A DNA stretch of 64,000 nucleotides from Actinomycetota bacterium (GTDB lineage: Bacteria > Actinomycetota > Actinomycetes > Actinomycetales > Dermatophilaceae). Position 1 is the stretch's first letter. Each line of letters opens with the position of its first letter. Positions 1 to 16,315 of this stretch are shown in pieces. The notes under the pieces are model-generated. The model saw only the letters and a list, made by a program, of their open reading frames with translations, ran no database searches and was not told the DNA's origin. The stretch covers positions 1 to 64,000 of the forward strand of contig JAIUNK010000001.1 of the NCBI GenBank assembly GCA_020161845.1, given 5' to 3'. The translations under genes and the position numbers were made by a program.

Positions 1-705
1 TGCCTCGAAGACAAAGACGGTGCGTTTGCGCGGCTCGACCGGCAAAGTCAGCCCTGCCAGAGACGATACTACACCTGCATTTGGCCCCGCCGCGTTGATG
101 ACCGTTCCGGCTCTCATTCGAGCGCCGCTTCTCAGCGTCACGCCTGTCACGCGAGCGCCATCGCGCTCGATTGCGGCAACTTCCCCCTGAATCAAATCGA
201 CATTGCGTGTCTTCAGCGCCCGGCGCATCAGGCCGAGAAGCGCGTGGGCGTCGAACCATCCCTCGCCCGAGCGTCCATACGCACCGCCGGCAATGCCTTC
301 GGCCGACAACCACGGAAACCGTCGTTCAAGCGCGGCCGCATCTTCGAGCACAATGTCGCCGCCTTCGGCAATCTGCGTTCGGTGATTGGCCTGCAGCACC
401 GGCATGCCGTCCTCGCTGGCAAGGATCAGGTAGCCGCCTTCGCGAAAGCCGATATCGGCGTCGTCACCAAATTCCTGCTTCAATCGCCGGAAAAGTCCAA
501 GCGTGAAGCGCGACAGACGGATGTTTTCGGCGATCGAGAATTGCTGCCGGATCGACGCCATCGACAGCGTGGTAGCGGCGTGGGCAAATTGCGGGTCACG
601 CTCAATCAGCGCAATAGACCCCGCAAAGCCTTCTTCCCGCAGATAATAGGCGACTGATGCGCCGACAATCGCGCCACCAACAATGACGATATCGTAGTTC
701 GCCAT
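1..705 (-). CDS. FAD-dependent oxidoreductase (DadA/glycine-oxidase type), 3' end beyond the window
   Basis: The 235 residues visible start with MANYDIVIVGGAIVGAS, a Rossmann dinucleotide-binding motif (GGAIVGAS is a GxGxxG variant) for FAD, and continue with the SIRQQF and GEGWFDAHALLGLMRRAL stretches typical of D-amino-acid dehydrogenase/sarcosine oxidase-like flavoenzymes. The likely role is oxidation of an amino or imino acid, with substrate unknown. The start ATG lies 19 bases after the stop of trcR, so the two are probably co-transcribed. The C-terminal catalytic half runs off the left edge. Codon use is milder in G+C than the actinobacterial part of the window, in keeping with the alphaproteobacterial origin inferred for 1-2490. 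Confidence 0.75.
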   Translation of the reverse strand, partial: MANYDIVIVGGAIVGASVAYYLREEGFAGSIALIERDPQFAHAATTLSMASIRQQFSIAENIRLSRFTLGLFRRLKQEFGDDADIGFREGGYLILASEDGMPVLQANHRTQIAEGGDIVLEDAAALERRFPWLSAEGIAGGAYGRSGEGWFDAHALLGLMRRALKTRNVDLIQGEVAAIERDGARVTGVTLRSGARMRAGTVINAAGPNAGVVSSLAGLTLPVEPRKRTVFVFEA

Positions 706-724
706 CGGAGCCTTCGCGGTGAAC

Positions 725-1420
725 TTACTCGTCGTCCGACTCGGGCTCCGCCCGCTTCAGTGTCGAGAGTTTTGCAAAAACTGCATCGGCGTCGAGTTCA
801 TCATCTTCGCCACGCGGCTTTGGCGCTGCGTCCGGCGACATGCGCTCGGTCAGCGCCGCCGGCAACAGCGTATCGCCAACTGGCGCGGCTGGTGCGCGGC
901 CGGACGAGGCGCGCTGCACCTCCAGATCAAGGTCGATCTGGCTCGCCAGGCCGAGTGTTACCGGATCCATCGGCGTCAAATTCTGCGAATTCCAGTGCGA
1001 ACGGTTGCGGATCTGCTCGATCGTCGACTTGGTGGTGCCAACCAGGCGCGAAATCTGCGCGTCCTTCAGTTCCGGATGGTTGCGAACCAGCCACAGGATC
1101 GCGTTTGGACGGTCCTGGCGCTTCGACACCGGCGTATAGCGGCCACCACGGCGCTTGGCTTCCGGCACACGCACCTTCGGCTCGTTGAGCTTGAGACGAT
1201 AGTTCGCGTCAGCCTCTCCGCGGGCAATCTCGTCACGCGTCAGCTGGCCGTTCATCACCGGGTCCATGCCCTTGATGCCCTGCGCTGCCTCACCATCGGC
1301 AATGGCGCGCACTTCCAGCGGGTGCAGATGGCAGAAGAATGCGATCTGGTCGAAGGACAGTGCCGTGTTGTCGACGAGCCAGACCGCCGTTGCCTTTGGC
1401 ATGAGGAGTTGAGTTGCCAT
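725..1420 (-). CDS. trcR: Cell-cycle transcriptional regulator TrcR (DUF1013)
   Basis: This 231-residue protein matches the DUF1013/TrcR family, which is known from alphaproteobacteria. Diagnostic stretches are the N-terminal MATQLLMPKATAVWLVDN and LSFDQIAFFCHLHPLEV, the central LVRNHPELKDAQISRLVGTT HTH-like region at about residues 120-140, and IEQIRNRSHWN. The tail after residue 165 is acidic and low complexity. The start ATG is preceded by GAGAGGAT. It lies between two metabolic oxidoreductase genes on the same strand. Its presence in an otherwise actinobacterial window is the strongest single sign that 1-2490 comes from another organism. Confidence 0.88.
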   Translation of the reverse strand: MATQLLMPKATAVWLVDNTALSFDQIAFFCHLHPLEVRAIADGEAAQGIKGMDPVMNGQLTRDEIARGEADANYRLKLNEPKVRVPEAKRRGGRYTPVSKRQDRPNAILWLVRNHPELKDAQISRLVGTTKSTIEQIRNRSHWNSQNLTPMDPVTLGLASQIDLDLEVQRASSGRAPAAPVGDTLLPAALTERMSPDAAPKPRGEDDELDADAVFAKLSTLKRAEPESDDE

Positions 1421-1566
1421 CAGATAAATCCTCTCGTTCGCCCGCGTCCCGGCGCGGGCGGTGGATAGACCACCAAAAATAGGGAAGAAGCATGGATATA
1501 GCTGTTGAGCGCATTCCGTGCAACTGCATTCACATCCGCAGACCTTGGGGCAGAAGACGGCTCTAA

Positions 1567-2490
1567 CTATCCGACATCAAGAACGATCTTGCCGATATGC
1601 TCGCCATCCTGCATGCGCTCATGCGCCCGCCAGGCCTCTTTCAGCGGAAAAATCATGTCCATGACAGGGGCAAGTCGACGCTCTGCCAGCAGCGGCCAGA
1701 CCTTGCGTTCAAGCTCACCCGCAATGCGGCCCTTGAAGTCGATCGGCCGTGGCCTGAGCGTCGATCCCGTATGGGTCAACCGCTTGACCATAAGCTTGGA
1801 AAAGTCTGCTTCTGCCTTTGCGCCGTTTAGTGTGGCGATTTGCACGATGCGCCCTTCGATCGCAGCCGCATCATAGTTGCGGGCAACATAGTCGCCACCC
1901 ACCATGTCCAGGATAACATTCGCCCCCTTGCCGTCAGTCACCTCTTTGACGACGCGAACGAAATCCTCTTCCCTGTAGTTCACCGCCCGGTCCGCACCGA
2001 GCTTCAGGCAGGCGTCGACTTTTTCAGCCGAACCGACAGTCGCGATGACATAGGCCCCGAAAGCCGATGCAAGCTGTATTGCCGTGGTCCCGATGCCCGA
2101 CGTGCCGCCATGGACCAGGAATGTGTCGCCCGGTCTGAGTTCACCGCGCTCGAACACATTGTGCCATACCGTGAAATAGGTTTCGGGGATTGCGGCCGCC
2201 TCCGTAAAAGTGAAACCATGAGGGATCGGCAGCGCGTTCGATTCATGCACAAGGCAGTATTCGGCATAGGCTCCGCCGGGCGTCAGAGCCGTCACCTCGT
2301 CGCCGACGCGCCAGCGCGCAACATTTTCGCCAGTTGCAGCTACTGTGCCTGCTGCTTCCAACCCCGGCAGATCAGATGCACCAGGTGGTGGCGGATAGGC
2401 TCCCATACGTTGGAAAACATCTGGCCGGTTGACGCCGGCCGCGCGCACTTTGATCAGGATTTCACCCGGACCCGGCTGCGGCAACAATCC
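1567..2490 (-). CDS. NAD(P)H:quinone oxidoreductase (zeta-crystallin/MDR family), 5' end missing at junction
   Basis: About 307 residues of a zinc-independent medium-chain reductase are readable. They start near PQPGPGEILIKVRAAGVNRP, which normally lies about 30 residues into these proteins, and run to IGKIVLDVG. The NAD(P)-binding motif GGTSGIGTTAIQLA is present, followed by GADRAVNYREEDF and a quinone-reductase C-terminal domain. The open frame continues upstream to 3465, but that extension is low-complexity read-through of actinobacterial DNA and carries no family signature. The true N-terminus and start codon are absent, so the gene is cut at the chimeric junction. The exact breakpoint could be up to ~25 bases to the left. 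Confidence 0.82.
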   Translation of the reverse strand, partial: GLLPQPGPGEILIKVRAAGVNRPDVFQRMGAYPPPPGASDLPGLEAAGTVAATGENVARWRVGDEVTALTPGGAYAEYCLVHESNALPIPHGFTFTEAAAIPETYFTVWHNVFERGELRPGDTFLVHGGTSGIGTTAIQLASAFGAYVIATVGSAEKVDACLKLGADRAVNYREEDFVRVVKEVTDGKGANVILDMVGGDYVARNYDAAAIEGRIVQIATLNGAKAEADFSKLMVKRLTHTGSTLRPRPIDFKGRIAGELERKVWPLLAERRLAPVMDMIFPLKEAWRAHERMQDGEHIGKIVLDVG

Positions 2491-2492
2491 CG
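2466..2492. other. Chimeric junction between alphaproteobacterial-like and actinobacterial DNA
   Basis: Within this interval the minus-strand quinone oxidoreductase loses its homology, and a plus-strand DUF4143 protein begins mid-domain. The G+C-rich stretch can be read meaningfully in both genes, so the breakpoint cannot be placed more exactly and a short shared sequence may have mediated the join. No transposase, integrase or tRNA is present here. A misassembled or contaminated contig explains two simultaneous truncations more simply than lateral transfer does. Confidence 0.7.
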
Positions 2493-2904
2493 CCTGCACC
2501 TGGCCGACCCCGCCCTCGCCTGCGCGGCTTTGGGGCTGAGCGCGGACGATCTGGCCGACCAGCCCGACCAGTATGCGGCCATCTTCACCGCCATGGCCGT
2601 CCACGACCTCCGCGTCTATCTCGAAGGCACTGGCGCCCGGCTGTGGCACTACCGGGACGAAACCGGGCTCGCCATCGACGCCATCATCGAATACCCCGAC
2701 CGAAGCTGGGCCGCCCTGCAAACCCGCCTGGGCGAACACCAGCTCCTCGACGCCGAAATCCAGCTCTACACGCTCGTCGACGACCGGCTCGACCTCAGCC
2801 AGGTCGGCCGTCCACGCTTCCTCGCCATCCTCACCGCCACCACCCAGGGCCACACCACCAGAAGCGGCACCCGAATCATCCCCCTCCCGACCCTGACCGC
2901 CTGA
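2476..2904 (+). pseudogene. 3' fragment of an AAA ATPase with DUF4143 domain
   Basis: About 142 residues match the C-terminal DUF4143 region of prokaryotic AAA/DUF4143 ATP-binding proteins: RLHLADPALACAALGLS, then FTAMAVHDLRVYLEG, WHYRDETGLAIDAIIEY (the remnant restriction-nuclease-like part) and RPRFLAILTATTQG. The whole N-terminal ATPase domain (Walker A and B) is missing because sequence of another origin begins upstream. One unusual point is that the expected EVKLG motif after the aspartate is replaced by QTRLG. The upstream continuous frame is antisense to the quinone oxidoreductase and not part of this protein. It is either a true pseudogene or an intact gene truncated by assembly. Confidence 0.65.
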
Positions 2905-3144: not shown

Positions 3145-3534
3145 GTGGGGTTCGGTCTTGAAGACCTTGCGGGGTTGCTCAACATGGGCCCCCCCATTGG
3201 TGCGTGGTTCGCTCAGACCGAGGCGGTGGTGGGGTTCGCGTGCGGCAAGGGCAGTGCGAACCGGCCGGTCATCGTCCGCCACTGGCCGAGTTCCGGCGCG
3301 ACGGCCCACGTGTTCGCACGGACATCGAACCTCGACCGGATGGAGGTCCGGAACCCAGGGCACAACCATCGCAACGAATGGCCCCGATGCTGGCTCGGGG
3401 ATGAGGGCAACATCGTTGTTTCCCGCCCGCTGCCAGTCCCGAAGGACGCTCTGGACGAGGATCACCGCCTGTGCAGCGAGGACGACCCGGCCACCATCGA
3501 GGCGGTGAAGTCGGCGCGATGGCAGGCGAAGTAG
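3145..3534 (+). CDS. Small protein, possible PemK/MazF-like fold; first gene of four-gene operon
   Basis: The 129-residue product is unrecognised by name. GTG 3145 is chosen because GGAGGA sits five bases upstream and because recognisable protein-like sequence begins there (GFGLEDLAGLLNMG). The middle part, NRPVIVRHWPSSGATAHVFA followed by GNIVVSRPLPVPKDAL, resembles the barrel of PemK/MazF-like proteins (a conserved RPVIV strand, later strand pairs, then a C-terminal helix). This is a weak pattern-level inference. It overlaps the next gene by 16 bases, so translation is probably coupled. Context suggests the small component of an undescribed defence or regulatory module. Confidence 0.6.
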   Translation: MGFGLEDLAGLLNMGPPIGAWFAQTEAVVGFACGKGSANRPVIVRHWPSSGATAHVFARTSNLDRMEVRNPGHNHRNEWPRCWLGDEGNIVVSRPLPVPKDALDEDHRLCSEDDPATIEAVKSARWQAK

Positions 3535-4532
3535 TCCCTGGCGGCCCTCTCTCGGACTTTGACGACCCGATCGATCTTGAGGACGCCCGGCAGGGCGACC
3601 TCGAAGCCCTCATCGACGAGCACAAGCGAGACGGCTTGGGATCGCTGTGGTTCGGCGAGATTCGGACGGCGGCCGTTCGCGTTGCCCGCCGCTACCCGCC
3701 CGCGGTATACGCTCGCGCCTCGTCGTGGGACGAGGACGCAATCGGAGACCTCGTTCAAGACGTATGTGAGCGGATGATCACCAGAGGACAGATCGACTAC
3801 ATCTGCGACGTCGCGAACGATTTCGGGCATGCACGCGCGCTCATCTACCGTCAGGTGAAGATGACTCTGATCGACCGGCGGCAACGCACCGCCGTAGACA
3901 ATCTTTTCGATCGCGCCGTGCAGCGGCTCAGCGAGCCCCCCTTCGAGGTGGCAAGGCAGAATCCTCGATCGTGGCGCCTCTCCGGCCGAGCCGCGGCCAA
4001 GAGCGCGCCCACTCGACGTGTGACCATGGCTCTCGGTGCGCTTCCACGATTGCCTGGCAACGGCACCGAACGAGCGAGCGCGATCTGGACGGCCGACACT
4101 CTTGCAGACGCGCTCACACTCATCTGCGGGGCCGTTGGCGAAATCGAGGAGATCGATCTGAAGAGGATTCTCGAGGAAGCTTTGACAGTCTTTGCAACAG
4201 CGGAGGTTGTCTCTGATGAGGCCGGTGCCGAAGGCCGATCCGGAGAGCTCGACCCAGGCGACTTGGTCTTGGCCCAGGGCCTGGCCGGCAGACTCATCAC
4301 GGCGTTCACGACGGAGGAGGCGACGGTGCTGGCCGGCAAGTGGATGGGCGACTCGGACGGGGACATCGCGCGCCGCCTGGGCGTCAGCCGCCCAACCGCA
4401 GCCAAGTACAAGGAGACCGCTTACGAGAAGGTGCGCGACGAACTGGGGTCCCAAAGCGAGGCGGTCGTCGGATACGTCTTCGGACGTCTGCAGTCGCTCG
4501 TCATCGTCAAAGGAGGAGGGGACGCGCAATGA
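3519..4532 (+). CDS. Sigma-factor-like HTH protein
   Basis: The 337-residue protein (start ATG 3519, inside the end of the previous gene) has two regions reminiscent of sigma-70-type proteins. An N-terminal helical part at about residues 60-140 (IGDLVQDVCERMI, then HARALIYRQVKMTLIDRRQR) resembles region 2. A C-terminal HTH at about residues 285-315 (SDGDIARRLGVSRPTAAKYK) resembles region 4. The linker is long and unlike standard ECF factors. It could direct transcription of its own operon or act as the DNA-binding part of the module. Its stop overlaps the next start as ATGA. A well-formed AGGAGGAGGG ribosome-binding site for the downstream gene lies in its last codons. Confidence 0.6.
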   Translation: MAGEVVPGGPLSDFDDPIDLEDARQGDLEALIDEHKRDGLGSLWFGEIRTAAVRVARRYPPAVYARASSWDEDAIGDLVQDVCERMITRGQIDYICDVANDFGHARALIYRQVKMTLIDRRQRTAVDNLFDRAVQRLSEPPFEVARQNPRSWRLSGRAAAKSAPTRRVTMALGALPRLPGNGTERASAIWTADTLADALTLICGAVGEIEEIDLKRILEEALTVFATAEVVSDEAGAEGRSGELDPGDLVLAQGLAGRLITAFTTEEATVLAGKWMGDSDGDIARRLGVSRPTAAKYKETAYEKVRDELGSQSEAVVGYVFGRLQSLVIVKGGGDAQ

Positions 4533-5431
4533 GTGACATCGAGCTTGGCGACATCTACCGCTGTGTTCCGATGGACCCGGGGACCCCGGCAGCTCTCGTC
4601 CTCGTGACCGCCATCGACGAAGCGACCCAGTCCGTCGGTATCACGTTGCTCAGCCCCGACGTCGAATTCGGGACCAGTGCGGATCTCTTGCTCAGCAAAC
4701 AGGACACTGGCCTCGCCTACGCGCTCGTGGCTGAGTCAGACATCTTTGGATACGTGTGGATCGTCCAGCTCGATCGGAAGCTGGGACACGTCGATGGTCC
4801 GGTGCTGGACGCACTATCTGCGCTTCGCGAGGAAGAACCGGTTGACCATCCCATTGCTGGCCCTCCAGCCCTTCAGCGAAGCGACCCACGCTGGAGCTTC
4901 AAGTTGCAGGAGCTGAAGCGGCTGCAGAGCCTCACTGCACATTGCACTCGGGAACTGATCGACGGTGAACGTATCCCCTCTATCGATCCGAACGCGCTGC
5001 GCGCCCCGTCGACGGAGACTGAAGTCGCAGCTTTCGAGGAGTTCGTCGTCGAAGTGGTCGAGAGCGTCGAGCGCGGCGCTGCTCGAGTTCCAGGTTGGCT
5101 CGTCGACATCGCCCTCGACGACGAACTCGTCGCCGCTTACCGTTCCGTGGGCTTGTACAACTCGCTCCGTCTTCTGTGGAGGCTAGCCGACCTGAGAGAC
5201 ACACCAGCCGGGAAGCAACCGACTCATTCTTCTCTCGAATACTGCCAGTGGCTCCAAGTCGAGTTGACCGCTGGCCGTGGGTATTCGAGCCTCCGGCTGC
5301 TTGGGCGGTCGACGGACGTCAAGGGCCCGATCGAGGCGCGGCCCGCCCGCACTCGGGACGGACGCCTCATCCAGTTGAGCCTTGTCTCCACCGGCGCACT
5401 CGCCAACCAGCACCGAGAGGTCTATGCATGA
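4529..5431 (+). CDS. Uncharacterised protein with PemK-like N-terminal region
   Basis: The 300-residue protein is of unknown function. Residues 1-100 (ELGDIYRCVPMDPG, AALVLVTAIDE, ITLLSPDVEFGTSADLLL, FGYVWIVQLDRKLG) have the GDIYxC start and alternating hydrophobic strands seen in PemK/MazF-like barrels. The remaining 200 residues are helical, with an acidic segment around residues 165-185 and a second part around VDIALDDELVAAYRSVGLYN. No catalytic residues can be assigned. The start ATG overlaps the upstream stop by four bases, with AGGAGGAGGG about ten bases upstream, and its stop overlaps the ATPase start in the same way. The coupling suggests stoichiometric production with the ATPase. Confidence 0.6.
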   Translation: MSDIELGDIYRCVPMDPGTPAALVLVTAIDEATQSVGITLLSPDVEFGTSADLLLSKQDTGLAYALVAESDIFGYVWIVQLDRKLGHVDGPVLDALSALREEEPVDHPIAGPPALQRSDPRWSFKLQELKRLQSLTAHCTRELIDGERIPSIDPNALRAPSTETEVAAFEEFVVEVVESVERGAARVPGWLVDIALDDELVAAYRSVGLYNSLRLLWRLADLRDTPAGKQPTHSSLEYCQWLQVELTAGRGYSSLRLLGRSTDVKGPIEARPARTRDGRLIQLSLVSTGALANQHREVYA

Positions 5432-7269
5432 GTAACCCACTGATCGAGCGCCGCGCCTTCGGGATGCGTCGGGGCATCACGCTTCGCCGCTGGCGGCTAC
5501 AGAACTTCAAGTCCATCCGCGAAGCCGAGGTTGAGCTTCGCCCGCTGACAGTCGTCGTCGGCGCGAACAGCGCCGGGAAGAGCACGCTCCTCCAGAGCAT
5601 CCGGGCCGCGAGCCAAGCAACCGGCACGACCGGGTACCTCTACCCCCTCAACGGTCGCGGAGTACGTCTCGGCACGGTAGCCGAGGTGAAGTACCGCGGT
5701 CCCAACAGCGACGATGAAGAGCCGCTGATCATTGGCGCAGACTTCGAGATTCGGGCACCACGCGGTGCATACCGCACTGGGGAATCTGTGATCTTCCCAC
5801 AAGATGCACCTGTGCTCGCAACGCTGTCCTGGGAGGTAAAACTCGGCGAGTCCTCCCAGCAGAAAGGGATCGCAAAGATAGAGCGCCTGAACGTTGACCT
5901 GAAGCCCGAGGATCCGTACATGCTCCCCCGGGGCGTCCCTCGCGTCGACCGTGCGTGGGTGCTTGCCATCGCTGACGACGGTGCCGAGGAGTTGGTGCCT
6001 CTGAATGAGGACGACGACGTCTCAATCCCGCACTATTTCTCCGGAAGGTTCGCCGGGGCCAACGGCAACCTGTTCGAGATCGTCGATATCCTCGTCACTG
6101 GTGGGTTTCCGCTTGACGCATCAGTGATGCGCCCGCGCGCCGAGGTCCTGTTCGAGACGTGGCGCGACATGCTTCTCCGGCGATCAGTTCATGAGCGAGA
6201 GGAGATTGAGCTCGACCTCCTGTCGGAGCTCAGGGCGATCGAAGAGGTGAGCCGTGAGTTGCTTGCGGTCCATGCTGACGTGGCCGACGCGATGGCTGAG
6301 TACGCCGACGCGGTCCGCTTTGAACTAGGTTCCAGCGCTCCTGAGAACCGCTCAAAGATCGATCTCAACATCGCGTCTTCCGAGACGTTCAGTGACGCGG
6401 TGGTGGACGAGTTGACGAAGGGCGGGATCGAGGGGATGGTCCCCTTTCCCCATCGGTTGGACGACCTCGGCAGGTCGTCGGATCTCGCGTCCTCGTTCCT
6501 AGGATCGGGAATCCGGTACCTCGGCCCACTTCGCGACGAGCCCAGAGCGGCATACCCGGATTCGCCCGAAGGAGATGACACATACGTCGGCGCGAAGGGC
6601 GAGTTCACTGCCTCCGTGCTGCAGCGCCACGGTAGGCGAAGGGTCAGCGTCCCGACACCGGATGACTACGGGTCCATCAAGACGCCGCGTCGCCCAATCC
6701 AGCTCATGACAGCGGTAAACCGCTGGGCCAAGTACCTGGACATCGGTGAGAGCTTCTCGGTATCTGACCAAGGCCGTTTCGGCATTCAAATGCAGGTACG
6801 GCAGGACGATGTCGAGGGCGACCTGGACCTCACCAGCGTCGGTACAGGCGTCAGCCAGTTGCTGCCGGTCATCGTGATGTGTGTGCAGGCGCCTGTCGGC
6901 TCGCTGCTCCTAGTCGAACAGCCCGAGTTGCACCTCAACCCGCGGGTGCAGCAGCGCCTTGCTGACTTCCTACTGGTGATCGCGCAGAGCGGCCGCCACC
7001 TCATCGTCGAGACCCACAGCGAGTACCTCATCTCGCGCCTGCGCCGACGCGTTGCCGAGGACGAGGGGGATAGTCTCCAGGACACCATCGGCATCTATTT
7101 CGCGAAACGGGTAGCCGGTGCGACGACGTTCAACCTCGTGCAGCAGAACGAGTACGGCGGCATCGAGCGGTGGCCTGAGAACTTCTTCGACCAGGCCACG
7201 GAGGAGGAGCACGCGATTCTTTCGGCCGCAGTCAGGAAGCGTCGCGCGAAGGCCGCGAACCCCGAGTAA
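5428..7269 (+). CDS. AAA15-type ATPase with DUF3696 C-terminus
   Basis: This 613-residue SMC/OLD-like ATPase begins with the RWRLQNFKSIREAEVELRPL strand pair and Walker A GANSAGKS at residues 45-52. Walker B LLLVEQPELHLNP lies near residues 492-505 and the H-loop motif IVETHSEYL near 525. The C-terminus (about residues 550-600, with FNLVQQNEYGGIERWPENFF) matches DUF3696, which follows this kind of ATPase. No TOPRIM domain is visible, so it is not a classical OLD nuclease. ATPases of this group drive many phage-defence systems, usually with a separate effector. Here the effector would have to be one of the three upstream overlapping genes. It ends 89 bases before hsdM. Confidence 0.8.
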   Translation: MSNPLIERRAFGMRRGITLRRWRLQNFKSIREAEVELRPLTVVVGANSAGKSTLLQSIRAASQATGTTGYLYPLNGRGVRLGTVAEVKYRGPNSDDEEPLIIGADFEIRAPRGAYRTGESVIFPQDAPVLATLSWEVKLGESSQQKGIAKIERLNVDLKPEDPYMLPRGVPRVDRAWVLAIADDGAEELVPLNEDDDVSIPHYFSGRFAGANGNLFEIVDILVTGGFPLDASVMRPRAEVLFETWRDMLLRRSVHEREEIELDLLSELRAIEEVSRELLAVHADVADAMAEYADAVRFELGSSAPENRSKIDLNIASSETFSDAVVDELTKGGIEGMVPFPHRLDDLGRSSDLASSFLGSGIRYLGPLRDEPRAAYPDSPEGDDTYVGAKGEFTASVLQRHGRRRVSVPTPDDYGSIKTPRRPIQLMTAVNRWAKYLDIGESFSVSDQGRFGIQMQVRQDDVEGDLDLTSVGTGVSQLLPVIVMCVQAPVGSLLLVEQPELHLNPRVQQRLADFLLVIAQSGRHLIVETHSEYLISRLRRRVAEDEGDSLQDTIGIYFAKRVAGATTFNLVQQNEYGGIERWPENFFDQATEEEHAILSAAVRKRRAKAANPE

Positions 7270-7358
7270 CCAACACCGCTCACATCGGTCCGTCCAAGCC
7301 GGATTGGCATCGGTGTCGGGTTCAAAGGCAACGACGACAGCACGAAGGGAGGCGCCGT

Positions 7359-8933
7359 ATGGCACGAGTCGCACGCAAGATGGGGACCAAGACCCTCGAG
7401 CAGAAGCTGTGGGATGCCGCCGACGCCCTGCGGGGGAACCAGGAGCCGAGCGAGTACAAGCACGTCGTGCTCGGCCTGGTGTTCCTCAAGTACATCTCCG
7501 ACCGATTTGAGGGTCGACGCAAGGAGATCGAGGCGGAACTTGCCGCCGACGGTCTCAGGCCCGAGCAGATAGGGCGGCTAGCCGAGGACCGGGACGAGTA
7601 CACCAGCAACTCAGTCTTCTGGGTTCCTGCCGCCGCGCGGTGGGGCGTCATCCAGAGGGCGGCCAAGCAGCCGGAGATAGGTGAGTTCATCGACAATGCT
7701 ATGGACCTCATCGAGCGCGAGAATCCCAAGCTGCGCGGGGTGCTGCCGCGAAACTACGGCCGAGAAGACCTCGACAAGGGCCGGCTCGGCCAGCTCGTCG
7801 ACATAATCGGTTCCATCGGCTTCACCCCGTCTGACGATCATGGGTCCGACGACGTGCTCGGCCGGGTGTACGAGTACTTCCTTGGCCAGTTTGCCGGCAA
7901 GGAGACCGGCAAGGAGGCCGGCGCGTTCTACACTCCGCGTTCGGTCGTCAAGACGCTCGTCGAGATGCTTGAGCCTTACCGCGGCCGCGTCTACGACCCC
8001 GCCTGTGGATCGGGTGGCATGTTCGTTCAGTCTGCAGAGTTCGTCAAAGCGCACGGCGGCAGGCGAAATGACATCTCCGTCTACGGTCAGGAGTTCACCG
8101 CGACCACTTGGAAGCTCGCGAAGATGAACCTCGCTCTGCGGGGCATTGACGCTGACCTAGGCGACAGGTCTGCCGATTCCTTCACTCAGGACCTGCACCC
8201 CGATCTCCGAGCCGACTACGTGCTGGCCAACCCCCCTTTCAACGTGAGCGACTGGTGGAACGCGAAGCTTGCCGACGACCCCCGCTGGAAGTACGGCACT
8301 CCCCCCGAAGGTAATGCGAACTTCGCTTGGGTCCAGCACTTCATTTACCACCTCAGCCCTCGGGGCACCGCCGGCTTCGTCCTCGCCAACGGTTCCCTCA
8401 GTTCGAAGACCAACGGCGAGGGCGAAATCCGCCGAAGGCTCGTCGAGGCAGACCTTGTCGACTGCATCGTGGCGATGCCCGACAAGCTGTTCTTCAACAC
8501 CGGCATCCCGGTGAGTCTGTGGTTCGTCAGCCGCGACCGTGGCGGCAACGCCCAGCACCGGGCGCGCAAGGGCGAGGTGCTGTTCATCGACGCCCGCAAG
8601 CTCGGCACCCTGGTCAACCGACGCCTCCGCGAATTGTCCGACGACGACATCCAGCAGATCGCGGGTGCTTACCACACGTGGCGGAACTGGGAGGGCGACT
8701 ACCACGACTTAGCTGGCTTCGCGAAGGCTGCCTCCCTGGACGAGATCAATAGGCACGGGTTCGTCCTCACGCCGGGGCGCTTCGTCGGCACGGAGGTGGC
8801 CGAGGACGACGAGGAGCCCGTCGACGACAAGATCGAGCGCCTCACTGCGGAGCTCTTCGCGGAGTTCGAACGTGGCCGCGAACTCGAAGATGAGATCCGC
8901 GTGCGATTGAAGGCACTTTACCGTGGCAGGTGA
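7359..8933 (+). CDS. hsdM: Type I restriction-modification system methyltransferase HsdM
   Basis: The 524-residue N6-adenine DNA methyltransferase has an N-terminal HsdM helical domain (EYKHVVLGLVFLKYISDRFE), SAM-binding motif I DPACGSGGMFVQS at about residues 213-225, and catalytic motif IV NPPFNVSDWW at about 291-300. The C-terminal LFAEFERGRELEDEIR helix contacts the S subunit in this family. GAAGGGAGG precedes ATG 7359. It is the first gene of an hsdM-hsdS-(TIGR02391)-hsdR operon and overlaps hsdS by 11 bases. It methylates the system's bipartite site to protect host DNA. Confidence 0.95.
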   Translation: MARVARKMGTKTLEQKLWDAADALRGNQEPSEYKHVVLGLVFLKYISDRFEGRRKEIEAELAADGLRPEQIGRLAEDRDEYTSNSVFWVPAAARWGVIQRAAKQPEIGEFIDNAMDLIERENPKLRGVLPRNYGREDLDKGRLGQLVDIIGSIGFTPSDDHGSDDVLGRVYEYFLGQFAGKETGKEAGAFYTPRSVVKTLVEMLEPYRGRVYDPACGSGGMFVQSAEFVKAHGGRRNDISVYGQEFTATTWKLAKMNLALRGIDADLGDRSADSFTQDLHPDLRADYVLANPPFNVSDWWNAKLADDPRWKYGTPPEGNANFAWVQHFIYHLSPRGTAGFVLANGSLSSKTNGEGEIRRRLVEADLVDCIVAMPDKLFFNTGIPVSLWFVSRDRGGNAQHRARKGEVLFIDARKLGTLVNRRLRELSDDDIQQIAGAYHTWRNWEGDYHDLAGFAKAASLDEINRHGFVLTPGRFVGTEVAEDDEEPVDDKIERLTAELFAEFERGRELEDEIRVRLKALYRGR

Positions 8934-10119
8934 CGCGCCCTTTGATCACGATCCCGCGTGGCCGGTGGTACGACTCGCAGACGTCACGACCAAAATCGGC
9001 TCTGGAGCAACTCCTCGTGGTGGGTCGGAGTCTTATCTCCCGAGCCGTGAGACCTGGGCGTTCGTCCGCAGCCAGAACGTGTTCAGCCGCCGATTTGATT
9101 CCGACGCGTTGGCATTCATCAACGAGGAACAAGCGCGCGGTCTGCGTGGTGTGTCACTTGAACCTGGGGACGTGCTGCTGAACATCACAGGCGACGGGGT
9201 GACGTTCGGGCGAGCGGCAATGGTCGACCCGTCCGCGCTTCCAGCATGTGTGAACCAGCACGTTGCGATCGTGCGCGCCGACACCAACCGGGCGATCCCT
9301 GGTTATCTCTTGGCTTTCCTGACCCATCCTGACGTCAAGCCGTACATCGCATCCTTCAACTCGGGTGGTTCCCGGCGAGCTATCACGAAGGGGCACATCG
9401 AGTCGTTCCAGGTGCCCCTACCGCCGCTCGCTGAACAGCGGGCGATCGCATCGACTCTCGCCGCGTTCGATGAGAAGATCGAGTCCAATCGCCGCCTCGT
9501 GGACCTGATTCCGCAGCTGATCCGTTCGAAGGTTGACGCCGTCCTCGTCGGCGGGGACCAGGTGTCGGTGTCATCCCTCGCGCTGTTCATCAATGGCGGC
9601 GCGTACACGAAGGGTGCATCTGGCACGGGCCGTATGGTACTTCGCATCGCGGAATTGAACTCCGGGCCCGGAGGATCGACGGTGTACAACGATATCGACG
9701 TCCCTGACGACAAGACTGCACGCGCCGGGGACATCCTTATGTCGTGGTCGGGTTCCCTGGGGGTCTACCGATGGTTCCGTGACGAAGCGATCATCAACCA
9801 GCACATCTTCAAGGTGATCCCGACGGGGTACCCGGCTTGGATCGTATTTGACAGGCTTGATGCAGTAATGCCCGTGTTTCGCGGCGTCGCTCGAGACAAG
9901 GCCACAACGATGGGGCACATCCAGCGCGGTCATCTCGAGTCCACCTCGGTAATGGTCCCGTCGGCGTCATCGATCGCTCGGCTCGCCCACGCACTGGATC
10001 CTCTGTGGGAGCGCCTGCTGCTCGCTGAAAGGGAGAACATGGTTCTAGCTGTCACGCGGGATGCCCTTCTGCCCGAGCTGCTGTCTGGTCGCATGCGCGT
10101 GCAGGGACCGGTTGCATGA
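8923..10119 (+). CDS. hsdS: Type I restriction-modification specificity subunit HsdS
   Basis: The 398-residue protein has two target-recognition domains, each followed by a conserved spacer helix. The first half (residues ~10-170) ends in PLPPLAEQRAIASTLAAFDE, the usual end of TRD1, with the central spacer EKIESNRRLVDLI. The second TRD (about residues 205-340) is followed by the C-terminal helix RENMVLAVTRDALLPELLSG. The two TRDs define the two halves of the recognition sequence, which cannot be read from the protein. GTG 8923 lies within the end of hsdM, and the stop overlaps the next start (ATGA). Confidence 0.93.
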   Translation: MAGDAPFDHDPAWPVVRLADVTTKIGSGATPRGGSESYLPSRETWAFVRSQNVFSRRFDSDALAFINEEQARGLRGVSLEPGDVLLNITGDGVTFGRAAMVDPSALPACVNQHVAIVRADTNRAIPGYLLAFLTHPDVKPYIASFNSGGSRRAITKGHIESFQVPLPPLAEQRAIASTLAAFDEKIESNRRLVDLIPQLIRSKVDAVLVGGDQVSVSSLALFINGGAYTKGASGTGRMVLRIAELNSGPGGSTVYNDIDVPDDKTARAGDILMSWSGSLGVYRWFRDEAIINQHIFKVIPTGYPAWIVFDRLDAVMPVFRGVARDKATTMGHIQRGHLESTSVMVPSASSIARLAHALDPLWERLLLAERENMVLAVTRDALLPELLSGRMRVQGPVA

Positions 10120-10829
10120 GCACCCTCGACACTGCTTGGGCGATCCGAGAGCTCGCAGACTTCGTGTACGCGTCGGGGACGGACGGGATGTATCAGCGCG
10201 AGGATGACGAGGTGGTCGCGGAGAAGGCGCACGTTGTCGAACAGGTTCTCGACAGGGTCCTTCCAGGGTGGCGGGCTCGGGCCGACCAGCGGCCACAGAA
10301 GCTCCGCGAGTACGAGCCATGGGGGCATCTTCGAGATTGCGCGAGCCGCGGCATCGCTGCGCTCAAGCGCCAGGACGAACTGCGTGAGAAGCTGGGTGAT
10401 GACGCGCCATTGATCTCTGCCGCTCAGTTGCACCCCTGGGTGTGGGAGGGTGCTCGCTCGCTGTGGCAGTCGGGTCACTACCGATCCGCAGTCGAGGATG
10501 CCGCAAAGAAGCTCAACGCCGAGACGCAGAACAAGGTGGGCCGCCGCGACCTCAGCGAGACTGACCTCTTCAAGCAGGCGTTCACCATCGAGGCCGCCGT
10601 TGCGGGGAAGGCGCGGCTCCGTCGTCGGTCTCCCGACGGGAGCGATACGTACAAATCCGAGCAGCGGGGCGCGATGGCGTTAGCCGAAGGCATCTACGCA
10701 GGCATCCGAAACCCGTTCAACCACGAGGACCCGAAGGACATCGACGAGCAGACCGCGCTGGAGTATCTCGCGGCGCTGAGCGTGCTCGCCCGTTGGGTTG
10801 ATGACGCACAAGTCGAGAAGGGATCATGA
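10116..10829 (+). CDS. TIGR02391 (Ymh) family protein inside the RM operon
   Basis: The 237-residue protein matches the TIGR02391/Ymh family over its C-terminal half: HPWVWEGARSLWQSGHYRSA, then VGRRDLSETDLFKQAF, GAMALAEGIYAGIRNPFNHE and YLAALSVLARWVDDA. The N-terminal ~95 residues are helical with no known domain. The family has no established biochemical function but turns up in phage and restriction-related loci. Its position between hsdS and hsdR, with four-base overlaps on both sides, ties its expression to the restriction system. It may be a modulator of restriction, a separate abortive-infection protein, or a passenger. Confidence 0.8.
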   Translation: MSTLDTAWAIRELADFVYASGTDGMYQREDDEVVAEKAHVVEQVLDRVLPGWRARADQRPQKLREYEPWGHLRDCASRGIAALKRQDELREKLGDDAPLISAAQLHPWVWEGARSLWQSGHYRSAVEDAAKKLNAETQNKVGRRDLSETDLFKQAFTIEAAVAGKARLRRRSPDGSDTYKSEQRGAMALAEGIYAGIRNPFNHEDPKDIDEQTALEYLAALSVLARWVDDAQVEKGS

Positions 10830-13800
10830 GCAGCTTCAACGAGTCCGTCGTCGAGCAGGCCACGCTGGAGTGGCTCGCCGACCTCGGCTACCAGACCTTG
10901 CACGGGCCGGACATCTCGCCGGGCGGAGACGGCGGCCAACTGCGCGACTCATTCGCCGACGTCGTGCTGATCGATCGTCTGCTGCCCACCGTGCGTGGGC
11001 TGAACGCCGGCATCGAGAGCTCCGTCATCGACCAGGCGATCAGGCGGCTGCTGCGGCCGGAGTCGCAGAACCCGATCGACGAGAACTACCGCATCCACCA
11101 GTTCCTCATCGGTGGCATCCCCGTCGAGCACCGCGGCGCCGATGGGCATGCGCGCACGATCCGCGTGAAGCTGATCGACTTCGACACCCCGGTGATGAAC
11201 GACTGGTTGGCTGTCAACCAATTCACGGTGACGAAGGACGGCAAGAACCGCCGTCCCGACGTGGTCGTCTTCGTCAACGGCATGCCACTCGCGCTCTTCG
11301 AGCTGAAGAACCCGGCCGACGAGTACGCCAACATGAAGGGTGCTTGGAACCAGGTCCAGACATACCGCCACGACATCGCGCCGATCTTCGACTTCAACGC
11401 CGTCACGGTGATCTCCGACGGCGTCCCCAGCGCGGCGATGAGTTCCTTTACTGGAGCGTTCGAGCACTACGCCCCGTGGAAGACCATCGACGGCCGCGAC
11501 GTCATAACCGACCGTCCTGCTCTCGAAGTGCTCATCCGTGGCGTCTTTGAGCCGAAGCGGTTCCTCGACATCCTGCGCAACTTTGTGGTCTTCAGCGACG
11601 AGACGGTCACCGACAGGGCGACTGGCCAACTGATGCGCTCGCTCGTCAAGCGCGTCACGAAGTACCACCAGTACTGGGCTGTGAACACCGCCGTGGAGTC
11701 GACGGTCAAGGCGGCGAGCCCCGAGGGCGACAAGCGCGGAGGAGTCGTTTGGCACACCCAGGGCTCAGGCAAGAGCTTGGAGATGGTCTTCTACGCGGCC
11801 AAGATCATGCGCGACTCGCGCATGGAGAACCCGACGCTCGTCTTCATCACCGACCGCAACGACCTGGACGACCAACTCTTCGGCGAGACGTTTTCGCCCG
11901 CGACGATCTTGCCAGAGAAGCCCGTGCAGGCCGAGAACCGTACCCATCTGCGCGAGCTGCTTCAGCGGGCCTCGGGCGGCATCGTCTTCACCACACTCCA
12001 GAAGTTCGCCCCCGAAGAGCTCGGCGACACGAATCCCGTCCTCACCGATCGCCGCAACGTCATCATCGTCGCCGACGAGGCTCACCGCTCGCAATACGGC
12101 TTCGGCGAGACCCTCGACTCCCAGGGCCGCCTCAAGGCTGGCCTCGCCAAGCACATGCGCGACGCGCTCCCAGGAGCGACCTGCCTCGGGTTCACCGGCA
12201 CGCCGATCGAGACGACCGACAAGTCAACCCGCGCGGTGTTCGGCGACTACATCGACATCTACGACCTCACCCGCGCGGTCGAGGACGGCGCCACCGTCAA
12301 GATCTTCTACGAGCCAAGACTCGTGAAGGTCGGCCTCAGCGAGACCATCGGGGGCGAACTCGACGCCCTCGCCGACGAGATCACTGAGCAGGTCGAGGAG
12401 ACCGCGGCGTCGGTCGCGAAGTCGCGCTGGGCGCGCCTCGAAGCAATCGTCGGCGCCGAGGAGCGCCTCGACCTCGTCGCCGGCGAGATCGTCGAGCACT
12501 GGGAGAAGCGCCGCGAGTCGATGATCGGCAAGGGCATGATCGTCGCGATGAGTCGCCGCATCGCCGTCAAGCTCTACGAGAAGATCGTCGCACTCCGTCC
12601 TGACTGGCACACCGACGATCACAAGACCGGGAAGATCAAGGTGATCATGACCGGGTCGGCCTCCGACCCACAGGAATACCAGCCGCACCTCCACGACAAG
12701 GCCACCCGCAAAGAAATCCAGGTTCGCGCGAAGAACCCCGATGACGAACTGGAACTCGTCATCGTGCGCGACATGTGGCTCACCGGCTTCGACGCTCCCG
12801 CCATGCACACCATGTACGTCGACAAGACGATGCAGGGCGCTGGGCTCATGCAGGCGATCGCTCGCGTGAACCGGACGTTCCGCGACAAGCCCGGTGGACT
12901 CATCGTCGATCTTATCGGCGTGTATGCCAGCCTCCAGGAGGCACTCAAGGTCTACTCGCCGTCCGACCGCGATCAGGCTGGCGTGCCGATCGACGAGATG
13001 GTCGCCGTCATGCTGGAGAAGCACGACATCGTCACGTCCCTGCTGCACGGCGTCGCGTTCGACTCCTCGCCCGAGCTAGCGGCGGGCGACCGCCTCGCCC
13101 AGTACGCGAAGGTGCTGGACTTCGTGATGGCCGACCCCGACCGGACGAAGCGCTACAACGACCAGGTGCTCGCCCTCGCGAGGACGTTCGCGTTGTGCGG
13201 CGCACGCGACGAGGCCGCGGCCATCAGCAACGACGTGCGCCTCTTCGTCGACGTGCGTGCCGCGATCCTCAAGGTTGTAGACCCCGGCTCGGGACGGAGC
13301 GGTTCCGGTGCCGTCGACGTCGACACCGCCATCGGCCAACTCGTCAACGACGCCGTGGTGGGTGATCAGGTGATTGACATCTACCAGCTTGCCGGCATCG
13401 AGACACCCGAACTGTCAATCCTGTCCGATGAGTTCCTCGACGGGCTGGTCGACAAGGACAAGCCTAATCTCCAAATGGGGCTGCTGCGGCGCCTCCTCGA
13501 CGACCACATCCGCACGATCAGGCGCAGCAACATCGTGCAGACGCGCAAGTTCTCGGAGATGCTCGACGAGGCGATCAACCGGTACAACAACCGTTCACTG
13601 AGCTCGGCCGAGATCATCGCCGAACTCGTGAACCTCGCCAAAGCGATGCGGGTCGACATGCAGCGCAAGGCTGGACTCGGCTTACGCGAGGATGAGGTCG
13701 CCTTCTACGACGCTGTCGCCCTGAACGAGTCGGCAGTCACTGAGCTCGGCGACGAGACACTCAAGGCCATCGCCCGTGACCTGGTGCGCACAATCCGCGA

Positions 13801-13975
13801 CAACTGGACCATCGACTGGGACGTTAAGGAAAGCGTTCGAGCCAAGATGCGCTCTGCCGTCCGGCGCATACTCGTTCGTTACGACTATCCACCTGACGCG
13901 GAGGTGGAGGCAATCGCGCTCGTCATCGAACAGGCCGAGATCTTCGCGGCGAATGACGAGGAATTCGGGTTCTGA
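10826..13975 (+). CDS. hsdR: Type I restriction endonuclease subunit HsdR
   Basis: The 1049-residue motor/nuclease subunit has the N-terminal PD-(D/E)xK nuclease core RRPDVVVFVNGMPLALFELK at about residues 143-162. The SF2 translocase follows, with Walker A QGSGKSLEM at about 310-318, DEAH box VADEAHRSQYGFG near 416, and motif VI-like QAIARVNRTFRDKPGG near 675. The C-terminal ~250 residues are the helical HsdR C-domain. Length is normal for the family and no frame break is seen, so the enzyme should be active. It overlaps the TIGR02391 gene by four bases. Confidence 0.95.
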   Translation: MSSFNESVVEQATLEWLADLGYQTLHGPDISPGGDGGQLRDSFADVVLIDRLLPTVRGLNAGIESSVIDQAIRRLLRPESQNPIDENYRIHQFLIGGIPVEHRGADGHARTIRVKLIDFDTPVMNDWLAVNQFTVTKDGKNRRPDVVVFVNGMPLALFELKNPADEYANMKGAWNQVQTYRHDIAPIFDFNAVTVISDGVPSAAMSSFTGAFEHYAPWKTIDGRDVITDRPALEVLIRGVFEPKRFLDILRNFVVFSDETVTDRATGQLMRSLVKRVTKYHQYWAVNTAVESTVKAASPEGDKRGGVVWHTQGSGKSLEMVFYAAKIMRDSRMENPTLVFITDRNDLDDQLFGETFSPATILPEKPVQAENRTHLRELLQRASGGIVFTTLQKFAPEELGDTNPVLTDRRNVIIVADEAHRSQYGFGETLDSQGRLKAGLAKHMRDALPGATCLGFTGTPIETTDKSTRAVFGDYIDIYDLTRAVEDGATVKIFYEPRLVKVGLSETIGGELDALADEITEQVEETAASVAKSRWARLEAIVGAEERLDLVAGEIVEHWEKRRESMIGKGMIVAMSRRIAVKLYEKIVALRPDWHTDDHKTGKIKVIMTGSASDPQEYQPHLHDKATRKEIQVRAKNPDDELELVIVRDMWLTGFDAPAMHTMYVDKTMQGAGLMQAIARVNRTFRDKPGGLIVDLIGVYASLQEALKVYSPSDRDQAGVPIDEMVAVMLEKHDIVTSLLHGVAFDSSPELAAGDRLAQYAKVLDFVMADPDRTKRYNDQVLALARTFALCGARDEAAAISNDVRLFVDVRAAILKVVDPGSGRSGSGAVDVDTAIGQLVNDAVVGDQVIDIYQLAGIETPELSILSDEFLDGLVDKDKPNLQMGLLRRLLDDHIRTIRRSNIVQTRKFSEMLDEAINRYNNRSLSSAEIIAELVNLAKAMRVDMQRKAGLGLREDEVAFYDAVALNESAVTELGDETLKAIARDLVRTIRDNWTIDWDVKESVRAKMRSAVRRILVRYDYPPDAEVEAIALVIEQAEIFAANDEEFGF

Positions 13976-14034: not shown

Positions 14035-15450
14035 ATGAACGAAATAAAGTGCCCGCACTGCGGGACGGTGTTCACAATCGACGAGGCTGAGTACGCCAGC
14101 CTTGTGCAGCAGGTGCGCACAGCGGAGTTCGAGAAGGAACTCCACTCTCGGCTCGCCGAGGCCGACAAGACCAAGAAGGCCGAGATTGCGCTTGCTGAGG
14201 CGAAGGTCGCCCAGCTGGCGCAGGAGGTTGCCGCGAAGAAGGATGCTGAGATCCAGCGGCTGGAGAGCGAGATCGAGGGCGCCGGCAAGTCCCAGTCCCT
14301 CGCGATCGCGAAGGCCGACCAGGAGGCGCAGAAGGCTCTTAGTGAGAAGGATGCTGAGATCCAGCGCCTCACGAGCGAGCTCGCGGGTGCTGGGAACGCC
14401 CAGCAGCTTGCCCTTGAGAAGGCCGCTGGCGAGGCGCTGCGGACGGCGGCTGAGAAGGATGTCGAGATCGAGCATCTTCGAAGCGAGCTCGACAAGGCTG
14501 GTACGAGCCAGGAGCTCGCCGTCACGAGGGCCGTGGCGGTGGTGCAGCAGAAGCTGGGCGAGGCCGAGAACAAGCTCGTAGTGCAGGCCGCCGAGCAGCA
14601 AGCCAAGGAGTCCTCGCTCAAGGAGTCACACTCGAAGGAGATCGCCCTGCTCCAGGAGCAGGTCGAGCAGTATCGTGACTTCAAGGCGAAGCAGTCGGTG
14701 AAACTCCTGGGTGAATCGCTCGAACAGCACTGCGAGACTGAGTTCAACCGCGTCCGTGCGATGGCGTTCCCGAATGCCAAGTTCGGCAAGGATAATGACG
14801 CATCCACCGGCACCAAGGGTGACTACATCCTCCGTGACTTCAGCGACGACGGCGTCGAGTACATCTCGATCATGTTCGACATGAAGAACGAGGCGGATAC
14901 GACGGCCACCAAGAAGAAGAACGGCGACTTCCTCGCGAAGCTCGACAAGGATCGCCGTGACAAGGGCTGTGAATACGCCATCCTCGTCTCGATGCTCGAA
15001 GAAGACTCCGAGCTGTACACGGGGATCACCGATGTCTCCCACGAGTACCCGAAGATGTTCGTCGTCCGTCCCCAGTTCTTCCTCGCGATCATCGCCTTGC
15101 TCCGCGGAGCTGCCCGGGAGACCATCCAGGTCAAGGCCGAGCTCGAACAGACAAAGAAGCAGAACATCGACATCACGAACTTCGAGTCGGACCTCGAAGA
15201 CTTCAAGTCGGCATTCGGCCGCAACTACGACCTCGCGAAGCGGAAGTTCGACACCGCTATCGAGGACATCGACAAGGCCATCGAGCGTCTCCAGAAGGTC
15301 AAGGAGGGGCTCCTTGGCTCTGAGAACAACCTGCGCCTCGCCAACGACAAGGCGACCGCCCTCACCGTCAAGAAGCTCACTCGGGGCAACGAGACGATGA
15401 AGCAGAAGTTCGGTGAACTCGAGCCCCCTCACGAGCCCGAGGCCGCCTGA
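14035..15450 (+). CDS. DUF2130 protein: zinc-ribbon start, coiled coil, nuclease-like domain
   Basis: The 471-residue protein starts with a half zinc ribbon (CPHCGTVF, residues 5-12). A coiled coil occupies about residues 25-230 and contains three ~36-37-residue repeats, each opening with [16 protein letters not shown] and KDVEIEHL; the DNA repeats have a 108-111-base period. The DUF2130 domain follows (residues ~240-380). Its [17 protein letters not shown] and IMFDMKNE segments resemble the D...(D/E)xK core of PD-(D/E)xK nucleases, so a nuclease activity is possible but inferred. GGAAGGAGG precedes ATG 14035. It lies 59 bases after hsdR, which makes it a candidate downstream member of the same operon. 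Confidence 0.82.
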
Positions 15451-15457
15451 CCTACAC

Positions 15458-15498
15458 ATGCGGTGCCCGCTCTCCCATGGTGACGAGGGGCACCGCAT
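15458..15498 (+). terminator. Strong hairpin between DUF2130 gene and TIR gene
   Basis: An 11-bp perfect inverted repeat (ATGCGGTGCCC at 15458-15468 and GGGCACCGCAT at 15488-15498) surrounds a 19-base loop. It starts seven bases after the DUF2130 stop and ends 29 bases before the TIR start. There is no U-tract, as is common in high-G+C actinobacterial terminators. It could end the restriction operon or act as an attenuator that limits TIR expression. Confidence 0.6.
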
Positions 15499-15526
15499 TG
15501 TCAGTATCAGCAAGAAGGATCTACCT

Positions 15527-16315
15527 ATGCAGCACGTGAAGTACGACCTTGGACAGGTCAGGCGCGGATCGACGGTCGTCGTTACGCTCGACAAACAGGC
15601 GAACGTCCAACTCATGGACAACGGCAACTACTCCAACTACATCGCCGGTCGTCAGTACCACTACTTCGGGGGCCTCATGAGAAAGTCCCCCGCCACCATT
15701 CCGGTGCCCCGAAACGGCCACTGGTTCGTTGCGATCGACCTCGGCGGCGGTTCCGGCCGAATCCGAAGCGGCGTGAGTGTGCAGCCTCCGCCGCGCGGGA
15801 ATCTCCCTGTGTACCAGGAGCCTGCCGTTCGCCCACTACGCGACGTGCTCGACGTTCGAGTGCCGCAACGTCCGAGCGACCCGGAGGTGCTTGACGGCCG
15901 CACGTGGGACGTCTTCATCTCGCACGCGAGTGAAGACAAGCTAGCTGTAGCCATTCCGCTGGCTGAGGCGCTCCAAGCACGCGGGGTGACCGCTTGGCTC
16001 GACAAGGCAGAATTGCGAATCGGCGAAAGCCTTCGGAGGCGTATAGACCAAGGGCTTGCGGCGAGCCGGTTCGCAGTTGTTGTGCTCAGCCCTGCCTACT
16101 TCGCTAAGGGCTGGCCGCAGTACGAGTTGGATGGCATCGTCACCCTGAGCGTCGCTGGCAAGCAGGATTTGCTCCCTATCTGGCACGACCTTAGCCAGGC
16201 CGATGTAATGGCGAGGAGCCCGAGCCTGGCCGACAAGCTCGCGCGTTCGACGGGCGATACCGACATCGAGACGATTGCGGACGAGATCGCCGAACTCGTG
16301 AGTGCTGCCCGGTAG
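15527..16315 (+). CDS. DUF1883-TIR domain protein (probable NADase effector)
   Basis: The 262-residue protein has an N-terminal DUF1883 domain (residues 1-85: VKYDLGQVRRGSTVVVTLD, ANVQLMDNGNYSNYIAGRQY, NGHWFVAIDLGG) joined by a proline-rich linker to a TIR domain from about residue 124 (WDVFISHASEDK, WLDKAELRIGESL, FAVVVLSPAYFAKGWPQYEL). Glu200 in QYELD is at the position of the catalytic glutamate of TIR NADases. Bacterial TIR proteins often deplete NAD+ on phage sensing. DUF1883 would then be the sensor or localisation part, by inference. ATG 15527 follows AAGAAGGAT; an upstream in-frame ATG at 15413 lies inside the DUF2130 gene and the hairpin and is rejected. Confidence 0.85.
   Translation: MQHVKYDLGQVRRGSTVVVTLDKQANVQLMDNGNYSNYIAGRQYHYFGGLMRKSPATIPVPRNGHWFVAIDLGGGSGRIRSGVSVQPPPRGNLPVYQEPAVRPLRDVLDVRVPQRPSDPEVLDGRTWDVFISHASEDKLAVAIPLAEALQARGVTAWLDKAELRIGESLRRRIDQGLAASRFAVVVLSPAYFAKGWPQYELDGIVTLSVAGKQDLLPIWHDLSQADVMARSPSLADKLARSTGDTDIETIADEIAELVSAAR

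Follow-up and report, generated by a model that had tools for sequence, protein, structure and literature searches.

Phage immunity is costly, and how immune operons are activated is therefore an open question. It arises in concrete form in the first 64,000 nucleotides (hereafter, the window) of contig JAIUNK010000001.1 from an Actinomycetota bacterium of the Dermatophilaceae (assembly GCA_020161845.1), where four overlapping genes, here called genes 1 to 4, lie directly upstream of a type I restriction system. What might these genes do for the operon that follows them? The answer we favor, although we would put it at somewhat less than an even chance, is that genes 1 to 4 form a controller of the sigma/anti-sigma type for the immune operon beside them, with the ATPase encoded by gene 4 as sensor or effector.

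RESULTS

A sigma-factor-like protein encoded by gene 2

A preliminary description of this locus, made from the sequence alone, had reported four same-strand genes overlapping by 16, 4 and 4 bases beside a restriction system, and had named a sigma-like protein and an AAA15/DUF3696 ATPase among their products. These structural claims are borne out. Open reading frame (ORF) calls on the plus strand place genes 1/2, 2/3 and 3/4 in overlaps of 16, 4 and 4 bp, hsdM-hsdS-ymh-hsdR follows downstream on the same strand, and the two protein assignments agree with the matches described below.

The TIGR02937 model (sigma70-ECF, for extracytoplasmic function) matches residues 55-309 of gene 2 (E=2.1e-4, 21 bits), and relatives in three further genomes, designated G591, G765 and G954, score higher (9.6e-7, 2.2e-7 and 3.7e-5). 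The model is covered nearly end to end in the window and in G591, from model position 57 in G765 and from position 46 in G954. When a three-sequence gene 2 profile was compared with PDB, the ECF sigma factor SigL came out on top (E=3.6e-5); in this match region 4 is clear, whereas region 2 is weak (3.8 bits) but in order, and the sigma regions are set apart by a long intervening stretch. Sigma70_r4_2 lies above cut-off in the G765 relative, and the window gene 2 by itself falls under every Pfam cut-off. From these matches, gene 2 is a predicted sigma-factor-like protein.

A putative inactive MazF fold in gene 3

Genes 1 and 3 are without a family match in Pfam, PADLOC, NCBIfam and PHROG at E values up to 1. 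A four-sequence profile of the gene 3 N-terminal domain, when compared with PDB, returned three MazF9 chains and two mRNA interferase chains as its five best matches (E 0.005-0.009), the sixth being RNase R at E=1. Alignment of five gene 3 sequences with 14 PemK proteins in hhalign gave 92% (pairwise E=7.6e-7, 94 columns), as opposed to 0.1% in control comparisons with the sigma alignment (n=2). The gene 3 profile also picked up a G908 protein at 5.5e-5, which was set aside as an ordinary PemK (Pfam PemK 1.2e-24). By profile only, then, the N-terminal half of gene 3 is a predicted MazF/PemK fold. An Arg that is nearly invariant in the 14 PemK proteins, and that we take to be the catalytic residue, is Ala in gene 3; the barrel appears to be inactive, with its RNase activity presumably lost. 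The C-terminal half has no assigned family. In G765 and G954, gene 3 opens with HX3CX2C, which we take to be the defining zinc motif of the zinc anti-sigma factors (ZAS); zf-HC2 scores 0.0041 in G765, under cut-off, and gives no match in G954.

Three kinds of defense operon adjoin the module

The module is adjoined by three kinds of defense operon, namely type I restriction, BREX and multiubiquitin/ThiF-like operons. G591 retains the same four-gene order, and its genes 2, 3 and 4 are 31, 30 and 35% identical to those of the window (BLASTP), for which reason we regard all three as real genes. The four genes overlap there by 4, 8 and ~10 bp, the last value assuming that gene 4 starts at 4689. 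They are followed by a BrxA ORF (2.9e-31), a BrxB-like ORF (Pfam 0.0079, under cut-off; no PADLOC match) and a partial BrxC (1.4e-59) that ends at the contig end. The gap before brxA is 86 bp, a value that depends on the BrxA start chosen, and is similar to the 89 bp before hsdM. No brx core genes follow the window operon, where hsdM/S/ymh/R stand instead, the remainder of the window being unscanned for brx.

In G765 and G954, gene 2 shares 4 and 8 bp, respectively, with a small gene before it, and is separated by 9 and 6 bp from gene 3, which comes next. Here the three genes lie near ThiF genes and multiubiquitin-like genes (4.6e-5 and 0.004, both under cut-off), and no ATPase of the gene 4 family adjoins them. 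Instead, an M78 peptidase follows gene 3 in G954 with a 4-bp overlap and matches CapP at 3.7e-24. In G765, an unassigned protein with an HEMAH motif is encoded just upstream of the small gene.

The gene 4 ATPase and the small genes in the gene 1 position

Gene 4 carries AAA_15/AAA_21 and DUF3696 domains (Pfam), and in PADLOC it matches Menshen NsnB (E=1.1e-65), HEC-03B and PDC-M55A best. A Walker A pattern is present and the protein also reads LLLVEQPELHL, so that, on the Pfam match and a reading of the sequence, it is probably an intact ATPase. A Pfam scan of genes 1 to 4 found no TOPRIM family, the domain by which OLD, Gabija and PARIS would be recognized. ATPases of this family often occur where genes 1 to 3 are absent: among 72,556 plasmid records, 59 match gene 4, and the annotation of five plasmid neighborhoods that were viewed shows no genes like 1 to 3. 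Among 296 genomes of the class, matches at 1e-30 were found in the own genome and in G037.

Gene 1 is harder to place. Its third-position GC is 0.83 in its own frame versus 0.67 and 0.50 in the others. The G591 counterpart matches it in position and size, with a BLASTP E value of 0.14 and 26% identity in a global alignment, and the two share a C-x3-D-x-G-x-I ... C-x-E-x-D pattern. Near the N terminus, LEDL of gene 1 aligns with LEEL of G591, which gives mild support to the start at 3145. A MazF/PemK relationship is not supported for gene 1, which, taken together with its G591 counterpart, gave a profile-profile score of 0.2% against MazF and no match in a PDB profile search. The small genes of G765 and G954 are weakly MazF-like (86% in profile-profile comparison, with MazF3 as the best PDB matches at E 0.03-0.04). 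A pooled gene 1 search regained its own four members and one place at E=0.056, and has no value as evidence. What appears to be conserved across the loci is therefore the position of gene 1, and a common gene 1 family lacks support.

Distribution of relatives

Relatives of gene 3 are rare (the counts that follow include the own genome wherever it was drawn). The own genome was the only one of 97 to be found in one search; a search of 394 class genomes added G110 and G450, which we dismissed as noise, all three places having internal stops and no sensible ORF by eye. Among 396 phylum genomes, the own genome, G591 and G765 were recovered; 27 genomes of G591's class yielded G591 only, and 199 genomes of G765's class yielded G765, G954 and the G908 PemK. 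The plasmid records contain the gene 3 domain in two Mycobacterium intracellulare plasmids, as a stand-alone domain with 63% identity, in contrast to the 59 records for the ATPase and none for genes 1 and 2 or for the G591 and G954 proteins. This stand-alone relative (L004:12001-12450) is closer than any operon copy found, which suggests domain exchange; no link was found between gene 2 and a 370-amino-acid gene on the Mycobacterium plasmid. Phages and viral contigs yielded no relative of gene 2 or gene 3, and the viral contigs none of gene 1 either.

With the Mycobacterium plasmids counted once, five independent loci carry the gene 3 domain. In four of the five, gene 2 stands next to gene 3 and its start is overlapped by a small gene; two (the window and G591) show the full four-gene order. 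The sigma profile, at 1e-5 in 271 phylum genomes, matched 30 places in 29 genomes, of which those in the window and G591 alone span the whole model. The matches at the other 28 places stay inside positions 135-310 of the 319-position model, and these places were classed, without individual inspection, as ordinary helix-turn-helix (HTH) proteins; G765 is absent from this list, presumably because it lies outside the 271-genome draw. Weak gene 2 matches in G103 and G214 fall, by eye, in long proteins that end in a LuxR-type HTH and were likewise rejected.

DISCUSSION

Several controllers of adjacent immune operons are established, namely CapW/BrxR, CapH with CapP, and CapK with CapS. According to the accessible part of PMC13373217, these are repressor-based and responsive to DNA damage; CapP is a protease that is activated by single-stranded DNA and cuts the CapH repressor, and CapW or CapH with CapP is found in 219 of 544 Bub operons. 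Like these controllers, which adjoin BREX, CBASS and Bub operons, the genes described here would be small regulatory genes beside diverse immune operons, and in G954 they are accompanied by a CapP-like M78 peptidase. They differ in composition: the Cap controllers are built on WYL proteins, on an HTH protein with a peptidase or on a kinase with a STAS protein, whereas here we find a sigma-like factor and a MazF-fold partner, with a DUF3696 ATPase in two loci. It is because the module occupies the same kind of place as the Cap controllers, beside a CapP relative in G954, that we consider control of the adjacent operon its most likely function.

In the mechanism that we propose, gene 2 would be an ECF-like sigma factor and gene 3, the MazF-fold protein, would act as an anti-sigma-like factor that keeps gene 2 inactive, with gene 1 as a putative accessory subunit. 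The gene 4 ATPase would detect infection or DNA damage and lift the inhibition of gene 2, taking the place that is held in G954 by the CapP-like protease, and the released sigma factor would then transcribe its own operon together with the downstream restriction genes. This scheme is supported by the families of genes 2, 3 and 4 (that of gene 3 by profile only), by the conserved gene order and by the placement beside three kinds of defense operon; that gene 3 binds and later frees gene 2, that the ATPase is the sensor, and the promoter itself, are inferred. In its most specific form, the proposal is of a new family of immune controllers: an anti-sigma factor derived from a dead MazF toxin would hold a dedicated sigma factor, and an OLD-type ATPase or CapP-like protease would release it to switch on the adjacent immune operon, be this type I restriction, BREX or multiubiquitin/Bub-like. 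We advance this form more tentatively still. Since the four-gene layout recurs in a distant bacterium (G591) ahead of a different phage-defense system, the genes may act as a portable sensor or on-switch of immunity. If this is true, a sigma/anti-sigma switch common to restriction, BREX and ubiquitin-like systems would represent a different, positive route of control, and inactive MazF folds would gain a function. Positive control as such has a precedent in SiwR, which is reported to be a WYL activator of defense-linked genes (PMC10693628).

A number of observations weigh against this scheme. The TIGR02937 score of gene 2 (21 bits) is below the family cut-off of 42.9. With the Pfam PemK model, gene 3 goes undetected in all four genomes at E values up to 0.05, as do three gene 3 domains tested alone at E values up to 10. 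The HX3CX2C zinc motif is missing from gene 3 of the window and of G591, and the profile of the G765/G954 small genes matches neither the window gene 1 (0.1%) nor the gene 3 profile (1%). The stand-alone domain on the Mycobacterium plasmids has no sigma gene adjoining it, genes 1 and 2 both being absent beside it. Only four loci are known, two of them in one family, and the gap sequences reveal no shared promoter by eye (no statistic). Finally, the retention of an ATPase within the module would be unusual for a mere regulator.

The main alternative is an independent abortive-infection system in which the OLD-type ATPase would sense phage and activate an effector drawn from genes 1 and/or 3, either an RNase with the MazF fold or a pseudo-RNase whose part would be to release gene 1; gene 2 would then only autoregulate, and the clustering of defense genes would explain the neighbors. 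We regard this as rather unlikely, although stand-alone defense systems have ATPases of the same family (NsnB, HEC-03B and PDC-M55A are all defense ATPases) and OLD-ABC ATPases with diverse nucleases have been described from BREX loci as backup effectors (PMC12839542, accessible part). The four-gene order kept in the window and G591 would suit it as well. Against it, genes 1 to 3 show no nuclease family in Pfam, PADLOC, NCBIfam or PHROG, the conserved Arg is missing in gene 3, and G765 and G954 keep genes 2 and 3 with the small gene where no ATPase of the gene 4 family adjoins them.

It is improbable, in our estimation, that genes 1 to 4 are instead accessory subunits of the adjacent type I restriction or BREX system, for example with the ATPase guarding against anti-restriction proteins and gene 2 as a subunit that binds DNA but has ceased to work with RNA polymerase. 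Their position directly 5' of hsdM and brxA would be explained, and PARIS-type OLD ATPases do sense the anti-restriction protein Ocr (PMC12839542, accessible part), but genes 2 and 3 also adjoin operons other than restriction systems, namely the multiubiquitin-like ones. Quite improbable, too, is an addiction module of the toxin-antitoxin kind, with a MazF-type toxin and either the sigma-like protein or gene 3 serving as antitoxin and regulator. The MazF fold of gene 3 and, more weakly, of the G765/G954 small genes would fit such a module, as would the mobile-looking island of lower GC in which genes 1 to 4 lie. However, the same four family collections reveal no antitoxin, gene 2, being long and sigma-like, is unlike a small antitoxin, gene 3 again lacks the Arg, and the ATPase would be left without a role.

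Sigma factors of the ECF type paired with zinc anti-sigma factors are a known class, and the present genes resemble them in that a sigma-like gene is followed, in G765 and G954, by a gene with HX3CX2C. They depart from that class in that gene 3 has a predicted MazF fold, that the window copy is without the zinc motif and that the sigma regions of gene 2 are far apart. The likeness to MazF/PemK toxins lies in the gene 3 N-terminal fold (by profile); the Arg is replaced, the domain lies under Pfam detection, and it is fused to a C-terminal half and paired with a sigma-like gene. Gene 4 likewise resembles NsnB of Menshen (NsnABC), but genes 1 to 3 match no NsnA, NsnC, DUF262 or TOPRIM in Pfam or PADLOC, and membership of Menshen was rejected because the NsnA and NsnC partners are absent. 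The literature searched, which largely excluded subscription papers, contains no description of the four-gene module, nor do the accessible parts of PMC10952713, PMC12839542 and PMC13373217.

The interpretation offered in the preliminary description is, as a whole, partly supported. Like our searches, it points to no named system with this composition. Its suggestion of two barrel-like, possibly toxin-like proteins holds by profile for gene 3, which looks inactive, and is not supported for gene 1. The genes do travel together as far as genes 2 and 3 and the small gene are concerned, whereas homologues of the ATPase mostly occur without genes 1 to 3. It cast the sigma-like protein as a sensor, or an activator of itself, within a toxin system, whereas the relatives speak more for a control module on different defense operons.

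Locus layout and neighboring features

The coordinates of the module and of the operons beside it are collected in Table 1.

Table 1. Genes 1 to 4, the operon that follows them in the window, and the multiubiquitin-like loci of two relatives
Feature	Position	Strand	Description
Gene 1	3145..3534	+	129 aa, GTG start; no family assigned
Gene 2	3519..4532	+	337 aa, predicted sigma-factor-like, with a clear region 4 and a weak region 2
Gene 3	4529..5431	+	300 aa; residues 1 to ~100 predicted MazF/PemK fold by profiles; proposed anti-sigma-like partner of gene 2
Gene 4	5428..7269	+	613 aa, OLD-type ABC ATPase, C-terminal DUF3696
Intergenic gap before hsdM	7270..7358	.	89 bp; possible (putative) promoter
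Type I restriction system hsdM, hsdS, Hypoth_Ymh gene (10116-10829), hsdR	7359..13975	+	candidate controlled operon
Multiubiquitin-like and ThiF genes near sigma module	L024:8617-12893 and L035:11627-14049		two genomes (G765, G954)

Genes 1 to 4 open a lower-GC stretch (per-gene GC 0.61-0.67) that reaches ~16.3 kb, and beyond ~20 kb the GC of the window is mostly 0.71-0.79. A second record, JAIUOT010000014.1 (L003), carries a gene 3 that is 100% identical and the same ORF layout, and may or may not be an independent assembly. Since this record begins at window position 2784, the contig end of the window (1-2784) may be chimeric or foreign. That end holds a TrcR gene (725-1420; PF06242, E=1.1e-66), of what is presumably an alphaproteobacterial family, a zinc-type alcohol dehydrogenase/quinone oxidoreductase gene and then a DUF4143 fragment.

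On the other side, the same-strand order after genes 1 to 4 is hsdM, hsdS, Hypoth_Ymh, hsdR, a DUF2130 gene and a TIR/DUF1883 gene. The Hypoth_Ymh gene between hsdS and hsdR has weak PADLOC matches to Aga_HEPN and PD-Lambda-3_B. Directly 3' of hsdR, the gene for a TIR domain protein with DUF1883 (15413-16315) overlaps the DUF2130 gene (14035-15450), and the pair is possibly a further defense unit.

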